Origin: Candidatus Blautia merdipullorum
Lineage (GTDB): Bacteria > Bacillota > Clostridia > Lachnospirales > Lachnospiraceae
Assembly (NCBI GenBank): GCA_019118685.1
Contig: DWYL01000096.1
Coordinates: 1-49,395 of the forward strand
DNA: 49,395 nt
Reading direction: 5' to 3'
Shown: positions 4,026 through 38,111 of the stretch, piece by piece
Numbering within the stretch: position 1 is the stretch's first letter
How the letters are laid out: the number at the start of each line of letters is the position of its first letter
Program-made: the position numbers and the translations under genes
The notes under the pieces: generated by a model
The model's input: the letters and a program-made list of their open reading frames with translations, nothing else
What the model was told of the DNA's origin: nothing
Databases searched by the model: none

Positions 4026-4075
4026 AAAAAAGGCTGCCGCATGAAACCTGTATCAGGAATCTTTAGTGCGGCAGC
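4026..4075 (-). terminator. Intrinsic terminator downstream of rpoC
   Basis: Minus strand GCTGCCGCA...TGCGGCAGCCTTTTTT, with nested CCTGATACAGG. Confidence 0.8.
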
Positions 4076-4084
4076 TCCTTATAT

Positions 4085-7000
4085 TTAGTCTTCGATTAAT
4101 TCAGCTTCTTCTTCATCTTCAGAAAGCTCAGCTTCTTCCAGAATACTTTCGTCCAGCAGAAGCTCCTGGTTTTCTTCCGGCTCTTCCTGGATATCATCTT
4201 CCAGATCCAGAGTATCTTCTTCCTCCGGGATAACATCTGTATCCAGATGGATATTTGCGTATTTCTTCATACCGGTTCCTGCAGGGATCAGCTTACCAAT
4301 CAGTACATTTTCCTTCAGGCCGATAAGTGGATCGATCTTTCCTTTGATCGCCGCTTCTGTAAGAACTTTCGTTGTCTCCTGGAAGGATGCCGCTGACAGG
4401 AAGGAGTTAGTTGCCAGGGACGCCTTTGTAATACCAAGCATTACCTGTTTTCCTTCTGCCGGTTCCTTTCCTTCTGCAATAAGTTCCTGGTTCTTTTCCT
4501 CAAAATCCAGAACATCGACCAGAGTTCCCGGCAGGAAGTCCGCATCTCCGTTATCCTCCACACGGATCTTCTTCAGCATCTGACGGACAATAACCTCGAT
4601 ATGCTTGTCGTTGATCTCAACACCCTGGAGACGGTAAACTCTCTGTACCTCACGGAGCATGTAATCCTGTACTGCACGAACACCCTTGATACGAAGGATA
4701 TCGTGAGGATTTACGGAACCTTCGGTCAGTTCGTCTCCGGCTTCCAGATAATCTCCGTCCTGAACTTTGATACGGGAACCGTATGGAATCAGGTAAGTCT
4801 TAGATTCTCCGCTCTCATTGTCTGTCACAATGATCTCCCGTTTCTTCTTGGTATCCTTTAATGTAGCAACACCCTTGATCTCTGTGATGATGGCAAGACC
4901 CTTAGGCTTTCTTGCCTCAAAAAGCTCCTCAACACGAGGAAGACCCTGGGTGATATCACCGCCGGCCACACCGCCGGTATGGAAGGTACGCATGGTCAGC
5001 TGTGTACCTGGCTCACCGATGGACTGCGCTGCGATAATACCGATCGATTCACCTACCTGCACCGGCTCGCCGGTAGCCATGTTAGCGCCGTAGCATTTTG
5101 CGCAGACACCGATCTTACACTTACATGTAAGAATCGTACGGATCTTCACTGCATCGTAAGGTTTCCCATCTTCTCTTACACCGTCTTTCACCACACGGGC
5201 AGCACGTTTCGGAGTGATCATATGATTTGCTTTAACGATCACATTGCCATCTTTATCTTTAATGGTTTCGCAGGAGAAACGTCCTGTAATACGTTCCTGA
5301 AGACTTTCAATTTCCTCTTTGCCATCAGCAAAGGCTTTTACCCACATACCTGGAATCTCATCTTTGCCTTCGCAGCAGTCTACTTCCCGGACAATCATTT
5401 CCTGAGATACATCAACCAGACGTCTGGTCAGGTAACCAGAGTCAGCGGTACGAAGAGCCGTGTCGGACAGACCTTTACGTGCTCCATGGGCGGACATGAA
5501 ATATTCCAGTACGTCCAGACCTTCACGGAAGTTTGACTTAATAGGCAGCTCGATAGTGTGACCGGTTGTATCGGCCATCAGACCACGCATACCAGCCAGC
5601 TGTTTGATCTGCTTATCAGATCCACGGGCACCGGAGTCAGCCATCATGTAGATGTTGTTATACTTATCCAGTCCGTCAAGCAAAGCCTTTGTCAGGGCAT
5701 CGTCAGTCTTCTTCCAGGTATCTACAACTTCTTTGTAACGCTCTTCTTCTGTGATCAGACCACGCTTAAAGTTCTTGGTGATCAGATCAACGGTATCCTG
5801 AGCCTGTTTGATCATCTCTGGCTTCTGAGGCGGCACGGTCATATCAGAAATAGATACCGTCATAGCCGCTCTTGTGGAATATTTATATCCCATAGCTTTA
5901 ATGTCATCCAGAACCTCTGCGGTCTTGGTAGCGCCATGAGTATTGATAACTTTTTCCAGGATCTGTTTCAGCTGCTTCTTTCCTACCAGGAAATCAATCT
6001 CCGGAAGAAGTTCGTTTCCAGGAACAGATCTGTCTACAAATCCCAGATCCTGAGGGAGAATCTCGTTGAAGAGCAGACGTCCTAATGTTGAATGGACATT
6101 GCCCTGAAGCACAGTCCCGTCAGGCATAGTCTTCTGTTGTCTTACAACGATCTTTGTCTGAAGGGTGATCGCCTGGTTCTCGTAAGCCAGGATCGCCTCA
6201 TTCACACTCTTAAAAGCTTTTCCTTCTCCCTTGCTTCCAGGTCTTTCCTGCGTCAGGTAATAGATACCCAGGACCATATCCTGTGACGGAACGGCCACCG
6301 GGCCTCCATCGGAAGGTTTCAGCAGGTTGTTGGGTGACAGCAGAAGGAAACGGCATTCTGCCTGAGCTTCCACGGACAGAGGAAGATGGACCGCCATCTG
6401 GTCACCGTCAAAGTCCGCGTTAAATGCTGTACAAACCAGTGGATGAAGCTTAATAGCCTTACCTTCGACCAGGATAGGCTCGAAAGCCTGGATACCAAGT
6501 CTGTGAAGAGTAGGAGCACGGTTCAGCATTACCGGATGTTCCTTAATAACGTCTTCCAGCACATCCCATACCGCCGGCTCCAGCTTCTCTACCATCTTTT
6601 TGGCGTTCTTGATATTATGAGCAGTGCCGTTTGACACCAGTTCTTTCATAACAAATGGCTTAAACAGCTCAATGGCCATTTCCTTTGGCAGACCGCACTG
6701 ATAGATCTTCAGTTCCGGTCCTACTACGATAACGGAACGTCCTGAGTAGTCTACACGTTTACCCAGCAGGTTCTGGCGGAAACGTCCGGATTTACCTTTC
6801 AGCATATCGGAAAGGGATTTCAGAGCTCTGTTACCGGGACCTGTCACAGGGCGTCCCCGGCGTCCGTTATCGATAAGAGCATCCACTGCTTCCTGAAGCA
6901 TTCTCTTTTCGTTTCGGACAATGATATCCGGAGCTCCCAGCTCCAACAGTCTTTTCAGACGATTGTTTCTGTTAATGATCCTTCTGTACAGATCATTTAA

Positions 7001-7783
7001 ATCGGAAGTGGCAAAACGGCCGCCGTCCAGCTGTACCATAGGACGCAGATCCGGAGGGATTACCGGAACTACTGTCATAATCATCCATTCCGGTCTGTTT
7101 CCGGATTCCCGGAAAGCTTCCACAACTTCCAGACGTTTAATAATACGGGCTCTCTTCTGGCCTGTGGAATCTTTCAGTCCTGCTTTCAGTTCTGCAGATT
7201 CTTTTTCCAGATCAATAGCCTCCAGCAGCTCTTTGATAGACTCAGCGCCCATTCCCACACGGAAATCCTCGCCGTACTTCTCTCTGGCGTCCTGATATTC
7301 TTTTTCTGTAAGGACCTGTTTGTACTGGAGATCCGTAGTACCCGGATCCAGTACAATATAGCTGGCAAAATACAGGACCTTCTCCAATGTTCTGGGCGAC
7401 AGGTCCAGGATCAGACCCATTCTGGAAGGAATTCCCTTAAAATACCAGATGTGGGAAACCGGCGCTGCCAGTTCAATATGTCCCATGCGCTCTCTGCGGA
7501 CAGAAGACTTGGTAACTTCTACCCCGCATCTGTCACAGATAACGCCTTTATAACGGATCTTCTTATATTTGCCGCAGTGGCATTCCCAGTCTTTACTGGG
7601 TCCGAAAATCCTCTCGCAGAAAAGGCCGTCCTTTTCTGGTTTCAACGTTCTATAATTAATGGTTTCTGGTTTCTTTACTTCACCGTGAGACCATTCCCGG
7701 ATCTTCTCCGGAGATGCCAGTCCAATCTTGATGGCATCAAAAGTCAATGGCTGATATACCTCTTTATTTGCTGTTTCTGGCAT
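4085..7783 (-). CDS. rpoC: DNA-directed RNA polymerase subunit beta'
   Basis: 1232 aa; [16 protein letters not shown] catalytic motif, [24 protein letters not shown] zinc site. Confidence 0.99.
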
Positions 7784-14669: not shown

Positions 14670-14882
14670 TATTTTTAGGCTGCGCTGCTTCGGCTTCGGA
14701 GGATTCCTCCTCTGCCTCGAATAAGAAAAACCTCTTTGCCTGAAAGACAAAGAGGTACTGATCAATCTTAGAATCTGCAAAGATACTTCATCTCTGCTTC
14801 TGTAATTAAGAATGAAACTTTCCTCGGCAGGCGTTTTCATCATTATACCTTACGGCACCTGCTGTCTTCGGCAGCTAATCCT
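14670..14882 (-). ncRNA. L10 leader (cis-regulatory leader of rplJL), boundaries approximate
   Basis: About 200-nt structured leader between a promoter (14888-14916) and rplJ, containing an internal terminator/attenuator hairpin CCTCTTTG-tctttcagg-CAAAGAGGTTTTT (14726-14755); position and architecture match Firmicutes L10 leaders. Not tested with a covariance model. Confidence 0.7.
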
Positions 14883-14887
14883 TTGAT

Positions 14888-14916
14888 AACATAGCATACT
14901 TAAAAATGCTTGTCAA
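14888..14916 (-). promoter_or_regulatory. Promoter for rplJL
   Basis: Minus strand TTGACA-N17-TATGTT. Confidence 0.65.
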
Positions 14917-27097: not shown

Positions 27098-27126
27098 AGT
27101 TTAACTTCTTTCCCCGGCATAATCAA
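27098..27126 (-). promoter_or_regulatory. Promoter-like sequence for the MoxR/VWA operon
   Basis: Minus strand TTGATT-N17-TAAACT, directly after repeat copy 1. Confidence 0.4.
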
Positions 27127-27149
27127 TTTAAAAAAACAGGAAACGCCAT

Positions 27150-27275
27150 ATTAAACAATATCGAGAATATTTATATATTTTATGCGAATTTGTCGAGCAC
27201 AGCTTTGAGACCATAGGCTCAAAGTGGCGCAGACTGAGCAATAAAATATATAAATATTCCTGACATATGTTTAAT
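27150..27275 (+). repeat. 126-bp dispersed palindromic element, copy 1 (core in orientation A)
   Basis: ATTAAACAATATCGAGAATATTTATATATTTT - core ATGCGAATTTGTCGAGCACAGCTTTGAGACCATAGGCTCAAAGTGGCGCAGACTGAGCAAT - AAAATATATAAATATTCCTGACATATGTTTAAT; enclosed by stem AAAAACAGGAAACGCCAT/ATGGCGTTCCCTGTTTTT (27132-27149 / 27276-27293). Confidence 0.9.
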
Positions 27276-27299
27276 ATGGCGTTCCCTGTTTTTGTTTAT

Positions 27300-28355
27300 T
27301 TAGGCTGCGCTCCCTCTCCCGGAGCTTCGCCTTCCGCAGGCCCGGTCGAATTCTTTCAGCTTTTCTTTTGCCTCCTGGCTTACATGCTGAGGAACCTGAA
27401 TTTCGATCTGGGCATATTGATCTCCCTTTACAGAAGGATCCTTCATAGAAACGATACCTTTTCCTTTCAGGCGGATCTTCATTCCTGACTGGATTCCTTC
27501 TCTGATCTTACATACAACATTGCCATAAATGGTAGGCACTACCGCTTCTCCCCCCAGCACCGCGGTGCTGAAAGGAATCTTTACTGTAGTGTAGATATCC
27601 AGTCCTTTCCTCTCATATCCCGGCTTTTCTTCCACAGTTACCTGAAGGAGCAGATCTCCTGCCGCTCCGCCGTTGGCTCCAGGCATTCCCTTTCCTCTCA
27701 GACGGATACTCTTTCCTGTTTCGATTCCTGCCGGAATGTGGACTTCCAGTGACTGTACAGCGCCGGTAGACGGATCCTTCAGGCTGAGGACTTTCTTGCA
27801 GCCAAAGGCAGCCTCTTCAAAACTGATGATCACAGAGGCTGTCATATCTGCTCCCTTCTGAGAACGGCGGCCTCCATAGCTTCTTCCAAAGCCCCCGAAA
27901 TCTCCGCCAAAGTCCTGGCCGCCGAAGCCGCCAAAACCGCCTTTATCAAAACCGCTTCCTGAAAAGCCGCCGCTGCCCTGGCCATGGAACATGTCTCCGA
28001 ATATGTTCTTAAAAATATCGTCCATATCTCCCGGATCTCCCTGGAAATGATATTCCCGGTATCCCCCGCCAGGTCCTCCATAGCTGTAACTGCCTGAAGT
28101 CCCCGGACCGCCCTGGGAAGCGCCTCCGTCAAACGCCCCGCGACCGAACTGATCGTAAAGTTTTCTCTTTTTATCATCACTTAATACATTATAGGCTTCT
28201 GTAACTTCCTTAAACATCTCCTCGGCCTTAGGATTTCCGGCATTTGTATCCGGATGATATTTCTTTGCCAGTTTTCTGTAAGCCTTTTTAATGGCATTGG
28301 CGTCTGCATTCCTGTCAACACCTAAAACCTCATAATAATCTCTCTTTTTCTCCAT
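27300..28355 (-). CDS. DnaJ-domain co-chaperone lacking the zinc-finger domain (CbpA-like)
   Basis: [38 protein letters not shown] (J domain with HPD), G/F-rich linker, DnaJ C-terminal domain; no CxxCxGxG repeats. Confidence 0.93.
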
Positions 28356-28492
28356 TATAACCACCCTCTGCTATATACCTGCTATATGAAGCGCCTCCAT
28401 TCTGGACCAAAGATCCAAAGGGAGGCGCTGTACTGAAATTTCCTTGTTTCGAAAAAGCCTCTCTGACAGACTATTTTCTTTGTTCTATTTGT

Positions 28493-37493: not shown

Positions 37494-37522
37494 ATTCTAA
37501 CCTTGCGTGGTATATTTGTCAA
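37494..37522 (-). promoter_or_regulatory. Promoter for the transglutaminase/dlt-like operon
   Basis: Minus strand TTGACA-N17-TAGAAT, directly after repeat copy 2. Confidence 0.7.
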
Positions 37523-37539
37523 TAAACATGGAGCTGACG

Positions 37540-37665
37540 ATTAAGCAAAATCAAGAATATTTATACATTTAATTACTCAGTCTGCGTAGCTTTGAGCCTA
37601 TATCTCAAAGCTATACTCGCCAAATTTGCATAAAGTGTATAATTATTCCTGATATATGTCTTAAT
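37540..37665 (-). repeat. 126-bp dispersed palindromic element, copy 2 (core inverted relative to arms compared with copy 1)
   Basis: ATTAAGCAAAATCAAGAATATTTATACATTTA - core that is the reverse complement of the copy 1 core - AAAGTGTATAATTATTCCTGATATATGTCTTAAT; enclosed by stem GGAGCTGacg/gctaCAGCTCC (37530-37539 / 37666-37676). Strand refers to the core. Confidence 0.88.
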
Positions 37666-37682
37666 GCTACAGCTCCTGTCTT

Positions 37683-38111
37683 CTATAGATCTGTTAAATT
37701 TTTTTCTATTTTTTCAAGAATCCTATATACTGTCTCCAGTTCGTCCTTTGTGATTCCTTTCTGGAGTATTTCATCCAGCCAGTTAAACTCTTCTCTTACC
37801 AGCTTTCCCTTCTCTTTTCCTATCTCTGTCAGACTGATAAGATGAGATCTTCTGCTTGCGGGATTTCTGTTCCGCTGTATCAGGCCTGCCTGTTCCATTT
37901 TGTCCAGCGTACGGGACATTGTGGTCGCGTCAAACATACACAGATCCGCCAGTTCCCTCTGGGTCAGCTCTCCCCGGTCCAGCAGACAGTCCAGGATTCT
38001 GGGCTGCCCTTCTCCCACTGTAAGTCCGAGTGCCAGAAATTTCGGCCGCATCAGCTGTCTTCTCTCCAGATCCAGCCGGTGAAGGATTTTTCTTATACTG
38101 TTTCTTTCCAT
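37683..38111 (-). CDS. MarR-family transcriptional regulator
   Basis: MERNSIRKILHRLDLERRQLMRPKFLALGLTVGEGQPRILDCLLDRGELTQRELADLCMFDATTMSRTLDKMEQAGLIQRNRNPASRRSHLISLTEIG; start set by 5-nt spacing to upstream ABC gene stop. Confidence 0.92.
   Translation of the reverse strand: MERNSIRKILHRLDLERRQLMRPKFLALGLTVGEGQPRILDCLLDRGELTQRELADLCMFDATTMSRTLDKMEQAGLIQRNRNPASRRSHLISLTEIGKEKGKLVREEFNWLDEILQKGITKDELETVYRILEKIEKNLTDL

Follow-up and report, generated by a model that had tools for sequence, protein, structure and literature searches.

A mobile hairpin of Blautia with IS1182-type ends that probably inserts into intrinsic terminators and then serves as one

Two copies of a repeat in a 49,395-nucleotide stretch of Candidatus Blautia merdipullorum DNA (the whole stretch analyzed, hereafter the window) each lie between the stop codon of one gene and a promoter-like motif facing the next, raising the question of what the repeat does there and how it came to occupy these gaps. 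Copy 1 (27132–27293, plus strand) is an imperfect palindrome between the stop codon (TAA, 27302–27300, minus strand) of a dnaJ-type gene (27300–28364, minus strand; DnaJ and DnaJ_C domains) and the promoter of a downstream VWA/AAA+ operon (TTGATT-N17-TAAACT, 27098–27126, minus strand). Its outer stem P1 pairs CAGGAAACGCCATATTAAACA (27137–27157, plus strand), the arm in which the family carries an IS1182-like terminal repeat, with TGTTTAATATGGCGTTCCCTG (27268–27288, plus strand); the AT-rich stem P2 pairs 27165–27182 with 27242–27259 (both plus strand), and the conserved tip, or core (27183–27241, plus strand), consists of TGCGAATTTGTCGAGCA, the hairpin P3, and GCGCAGACTGAGCA. This core has plus orientation, antisense to dnaJ. 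A T7 tract (27130–27136, minus strand) follows the hairpin as U7 on the 3′ side of dnaJ transcripts and directly precedes the conserved −35 box. Copy 2 (37530–37676, minus strand) lies between the stop codon (TAG, 37685–37683, minus strand) of a MarR-family gene (37683–38111, minus strand) and the promoter of a transglutaminase-domain gene (TTGACA-N17-TAGAAT, 37494–37522, minus strand); its tip (37566–37634, minus strand) is diverged and sense to marR, and its T-tract is weak. The positions and spacings of both copies, the stop codons, and the promoter-like boxes given in the preliminary description are correct on direct reading. Both copies fold far beyond chance when compared with shuffled controls (z is −14/−15 for copy 1 and −7 for copy 2). 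With a core-less deletion derivative (GGCTGCCGCATGAAAC..GTGCGGCAGCTCC; 4026–4079, plus strand), the window contains three members of the family. This derivative (GGCTGCCGCATGAAACCTGTATCAGGAATCTTTAGTGCGGCAGCTCC) is located just 3′ of the stop codon of a gene at 4085–7783.

The element is an imperfect palindrome of ∼150–160 bp, a size without transposase coding capacity, in which P1 is followed by an asymmetric internal loop, P2, and a tip of ∼55–70 nt with its own hairpin P3. A whole-genome search located ∼33 core-bearing copies, plus core-less derivatives, in the window's Blautia genome (G000). The element is also present in sister species and, overall, in 13 of 20 Blautia genomes; a first sample of 41 genomes from other genera returned none. 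A covariance model of the tip, used in a family scan of 397 genomes, matched two other Lachnospiraceae genera (at least 10 copies in G358 and three each in G144 and G435), and an order-wide search of 392 genomes returned Blautia alone plus one weak match. The G358 copies have Blautia-like outer ends of the GGGGCTGCCGCA type, and the G144 and G435 copies have long stems unrelated to the Blautia ends. No match was obtained among viral contigs, plasmids, and phages, which we searched as possible vectors, and pattern matches outside the family, in Methylacidiphilum, Rhodobiaceae, Alphaproteobacteria, and Anaerohalosphaeraceae, look like chance. Relative to the core, the asymmetric internal loop of copy 1 (27137–27288; CGAG to the left and CCTGACATATG to the right) is turned around when compared with most copies, as are those of L002, L003, and L054, and arms and core can thus invert independently.

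We next consider how copies are placed relative to genes, which were located with a simple codon-usage gene caller. Of the copies in the collection, 118 lie between two genes (44 convergent, 65 tandem, and 9 divergent), two are inside called ORFs, and 29 are at contig or locus ends. Ordinary gaps in the window's genome comprise 24 convergent, 114 tandem, and 23 divergent cases. Convergent gaps are thus enriched among the copies (44/118 versus 24/161, p = 2e-5, an approximate value because the copies, some of them orthologous, were drawn from several Blautia genomes and the baseline from one). The median distance to the hairpin base is 19 nt from the stop codon (129 copies) and 90 nt from the start codon, and the stop-to-base distance is 10 nt or less in 56 of 155 cases. 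Across the hairpin base we count 5.65 T per 12 nt on the sides facing away from an upstream gene, versus 3.11 in controls. The random placement relative to genes that would have spoken against the earlier proposal is not seen; copies tend to lie shortly 3′ of stop codons and are enriched in convergent gaps. The exact fit between stop codon and −35 box, as originally described, holds at both window copies and does not generalize: few copies adjoin a promoter, and the same stop-element-promoter spacing recurs perfectly at a third site, L009, without being general among genomic copies. The proposal that the element acts as a terminator for the upstream gene fares better. A stable hairpin with a U-tract just 3′ of the coding region (weak in copy 2), the T-rich run, the convergent enrichment, and plain hairpins occupying the same slot in relatives all support a terminator function as judged from sequence.

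Comparison of orthologous sites revealed what occupies these slots elsewhere. The slot 3′ of dnaJ is occupied in G018 by a plain hairpin (GGCTGTCGCATTAATTAATGCGGCAGTC-T7) and in G001, G002, and G011 by one that lacks the core (AAGGGGACTGxCGCAT..ATGCGGCAG); the promoter (TTGATT-N17-TAAACTATA) is found in all four and directly follows the hairpin in G001, G002, and G011. In the marR slot, G018 has a decayed copy 2 that has lost most of the tip and retained the hairpin, and in G017, G011, and G001 the conserved TTGACA promoter is immediately preceded by a plain, unrelated hairpin. The plain or core-less hairpins of relatives at both slots indicate that the stop-hairpin-promoter layout is independent of the element. 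Its adjacency to promoters thus appears to be inherited from an older terminator-promoter arrangement.

Two nested sites are informative about insertion. At L004, the G018 terminator ACAGGACCGGGAA..TTCCCGGTCCTGT is retained in G000, with the element located in its upper part, and the basal stem in G000 is that of G018 and G014. At L021, plain terminators with a AAAAGGACTTTCC-type basal stem are found in G001, G014, G017, and G018, and the element sits inside a matching stem (AAAAGGACTCTT..AAGAGTCC) in G000, G002, G011, G016, and G019. The gene upstream of the L021 slot (L328–L331) shares 95–99% identity among the five element-bearing Blautia species, versus ∼80% at other loci, and the locus may therefore have moved between species. 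At a further eight sites (copy 1, L002, L006, L009, L014/L016, L017, L025, and L027), a plain hairpin, either unrelated or TIR-like, occupies the same slot in G018, and these hairpins fold with z values of −4 to −9. For the replaced sites, the direction of change falls short of site-by-site proof, and L004 and L021 are the firm ones. No target duplication was seen at L004, at L021, or at the eight replaced hairpin sites, and no pair of near-identical strains captured a complete insertion event. Six copies are eroded in G018, where the core is gone and the hairpin is kept (copy 2, L010, L011, L019, L028, and L029), L007 is inverted in place, and L021 is inverted between species. The tip is therefore dispensable at individual sites, being lost while hairpins persist.

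The ends of the element point to a family of insertion sequences. Arms match GGGGCTGTCGC with at most three mismatches in 63% of cases, versus 1.2% of shuffled arms. Blautia insertion sequences with NF033551 (IS1182) transposases above the cut-off have ends GGGGCTGTCGG or GGGGCTGTCGCTTTAA, as read in G007, G008, and G013. These IS1182 elements are flanked by inverted A-rich/T-rich sequence, in one case AAAAGTAA..TTACTTTT. A Blautia IS1182 element has a right end, at the 3′ end of L268, that itself forms a terminator-like hairpin (GGAAGCTGCCGCTTCACGATTTACTAATCGTTAAAGCGACAGCCCC), from which the outer stem could plausibly have descended. Within the IS1182 family, IS1272 is reported to insert into inverted repeats and replace them without target duplication (PMC5678879), and to prefer terminator hairpins, which it partly deletes, in both orientations (PMC4923244). 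Hairpins of the GGCTGTCG type without a core occur also in element-free species, and part of the stem resemblance could hence reflect shared terminator usage.

Taken together, we consider it probable that the element is a non-autonomous, MITE-like hairpin with IS1182-family (IS1272-like) ends, which inserts into intrinsic-terminator hairpins and then serves as the terminator. An IS1182 transposase would move it in trans, and insertion would replace the old stem-loop either wholly or in its upper part. The ends of the element would pair with each other and come to lie between the A- and T-tracts of the former terminator, so that the terminator would be rebuilt; the inserted element would then terminate transcription in that slot in either direction, with the conserved tip carried along. 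The element has several features expected of a MITE derived from IS1182-family transposons: terminal repeats resembling those of insertion sequences in its own lineage, no transposase coding sequence, and sites at which inverted repeats were entered or replaced with no duplicated target. The IS1182 transposase domain (PF13751) is present in 12 of 20 congeners and was not found in G000, whose fragmented 362-contig assembly may have lost it. Filing the element as an IS1182-type MITE is provisional because no autonomous partner was found in G000; this weakens the MITE account to a small degree and is compatible with it. We found no core inside full-length IS1182 elements.

An effect on the downstream operon, exerted through the AT-rich arm as an UP-element or through orientation, had also been suggested, and the two window copies and L009 (TTGACA-17-TATAAT at +7) indeed sit 5–7 nt upstream of −35-like boxes. 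The promoter at copy 2 scores 11/12 and is kept in G018, and G017, G011, and G001 have promoters that match it; that at copy 1 scores 8/12, below the scan threshold, and is probably real because it is kept in five species, the four others being G018, G001, G002, and G011. Both window promoters are however conserved in species that lack the core. Of 60 tandem copies, 4 have a promoter-like sequence scoring 10/12 or better no more than 20 nt from the hairpin base (∼1.2 expected, from 2% of control windows), and consistent placement beside −35 boxes, as expected of an UP-element, is thus not observed. The 44 convergent copies have no promoter to regulate, and the core orientation is random in tandem settings (27 sense and 38 antisense) and flips between species at L021. 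We therefore regard regulation of the downstream operon as highly improbable.

The tip raises a question of its own, as its sequence is nearly invariant yet its helices covary. In an alignment of 39 diverse copies, 20 of 32 pairs are changed on both sides, with 86 double-changed cells versus 17.5 in shuffles, and across three genera 8 of 14 tip pairs covary. Exchanges in the tip include T-A to C-G in the GUC/GAC helix and C-G to T-A in the next helix, P3 has several base-pair exchanges, and an internal loop and the tetraloop region are nearly invariant between genera. Six loci from another Lachnospiraceae genus (L280, L281, L282, L283, L284, and L285) have the same tip on near-perfect 20–30-bp stems without IS1182-like TIR or T-tract, and the orthologous copies L281 and L283 display strong stem covariation. 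Searches against Rfam 15 gave no covariance-model match at the gathering score; weak matches to eukaryotic miRNAs reflect the long hairpin, and in the window itself the ribosomal protein L10 leader (RF00557) was found at 14716–14889 on the minus strand.

The tip could be a ssDNA structure recognized by a transposase, a remnant module, or an RNA motif. If it were a protein- or ligand-binding RNA motif on 3′-UTR hairpins, selected at each site with dispersal being secondary, the covariation, the invariant loops, and the compensatory changes at orthologous L018 and L164 would be accounted for; palindrome correction rather than selection could be an alternative source of such changes. Orientation to the upstream gene is however random, cores are inverted at orthologous sites, and the sister species deletes or decays cores where the hairpin stays. 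The Rfam search gave no match, and G-U does not exceed A-C in the core (13 versus 10), so that the tip shows no strand bias; the stems have a slight transcript-strand excess (111 versus 81), which shared consensus mismatches may inflate. We hence judge an RNA family selected site by site to be decidedly unlikely. That the same tip is found on different outer stems, in genus g126, where copies lack a GGGGCTGTCGC-like TIR, and in L146/L166, would fit an independent mini-element whose targets are hairpin loops, IS1182-type MITE loops included, and which uses an enzyme of its own. This is also unlikely, since the TIR is common to most Blautia and G358 copies, the stems of L164 and L165 still resemble shortened TIRs, and we found no empty hairpin that lacks just the tip at a precise boundary, losses rather resembling ragged deletions. 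A bolder, and in our view doubtful, proposal takes the tip to be a new structured nucleic-acid module, folded as ssDNA or RNA and recognized by an unknown protein, that moves between genera on different carrier hairpins; what lands in host terminators would then be a modular hairpin parasite and not an ordinary MITE derived from an IS.

Compared with known systems, the IS1182-type MITE that we favor resembles IS1182-family transposons (IS1272, TnSha1) in several respects: the terminal repeats of Blautia members begin GGGGCTGTC, the targets are inverted repeats, often terminators, whose hairpin is partly or wholly deleted, and both orientations occur in one target without duplication. It differs in being ∼150 bp long without transposase, in having ends that pair into a new terminator, and in carrying a structured tip. 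SPRITE of Streptococcus pneumoniae has ∼30 copies, a terminator-like hairpin, 3′-end placement, and enrichment between convergent genes, and is thought to represent co-opted terminators (PMC3049150). We provisionally consider it the nearest functional analogue, by likeness in form and placement, although it is set apart by its published description (a duplex of 18 bp with AAAA/TTTT ends, for which neither related IS ends nor empty sites were found; PMC3049150), whereas the Blautia hairpin is longer, carries a TIR of the IS1182 type, and has nested sites that are empty in relatives. BOX, RUP, and ERIC-type MITEs are likewise short, dispersed, imperfect palindromes, intergenic and lineage-specific, but BOX and RUP make target duplications and none of the three types targets terminator hairpins. 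REP elements with RAYT transposases are extragenic palindromes near gene ends as well, but are 20–40 bp long, have a GTAG/CGTC tag, and depend on a Y1 transposase, whereas the Blautia element is linked to a DDE enzyme of the IS1182 type.

The element thus adds a covarying tip that is absent from Rfam and has no known match, and would extend the hairpin-replacement mechanism of IS1272 to a MITE that rebuilds its target. Orthologous empty sites suggest that a small mobile hairpin occupies terminators and becomes a terminator itself, later losing its core, inverting, or acquiring compensatory changes. The turnover of terminators in gut Firmicutes thereby becomes directly traceable.
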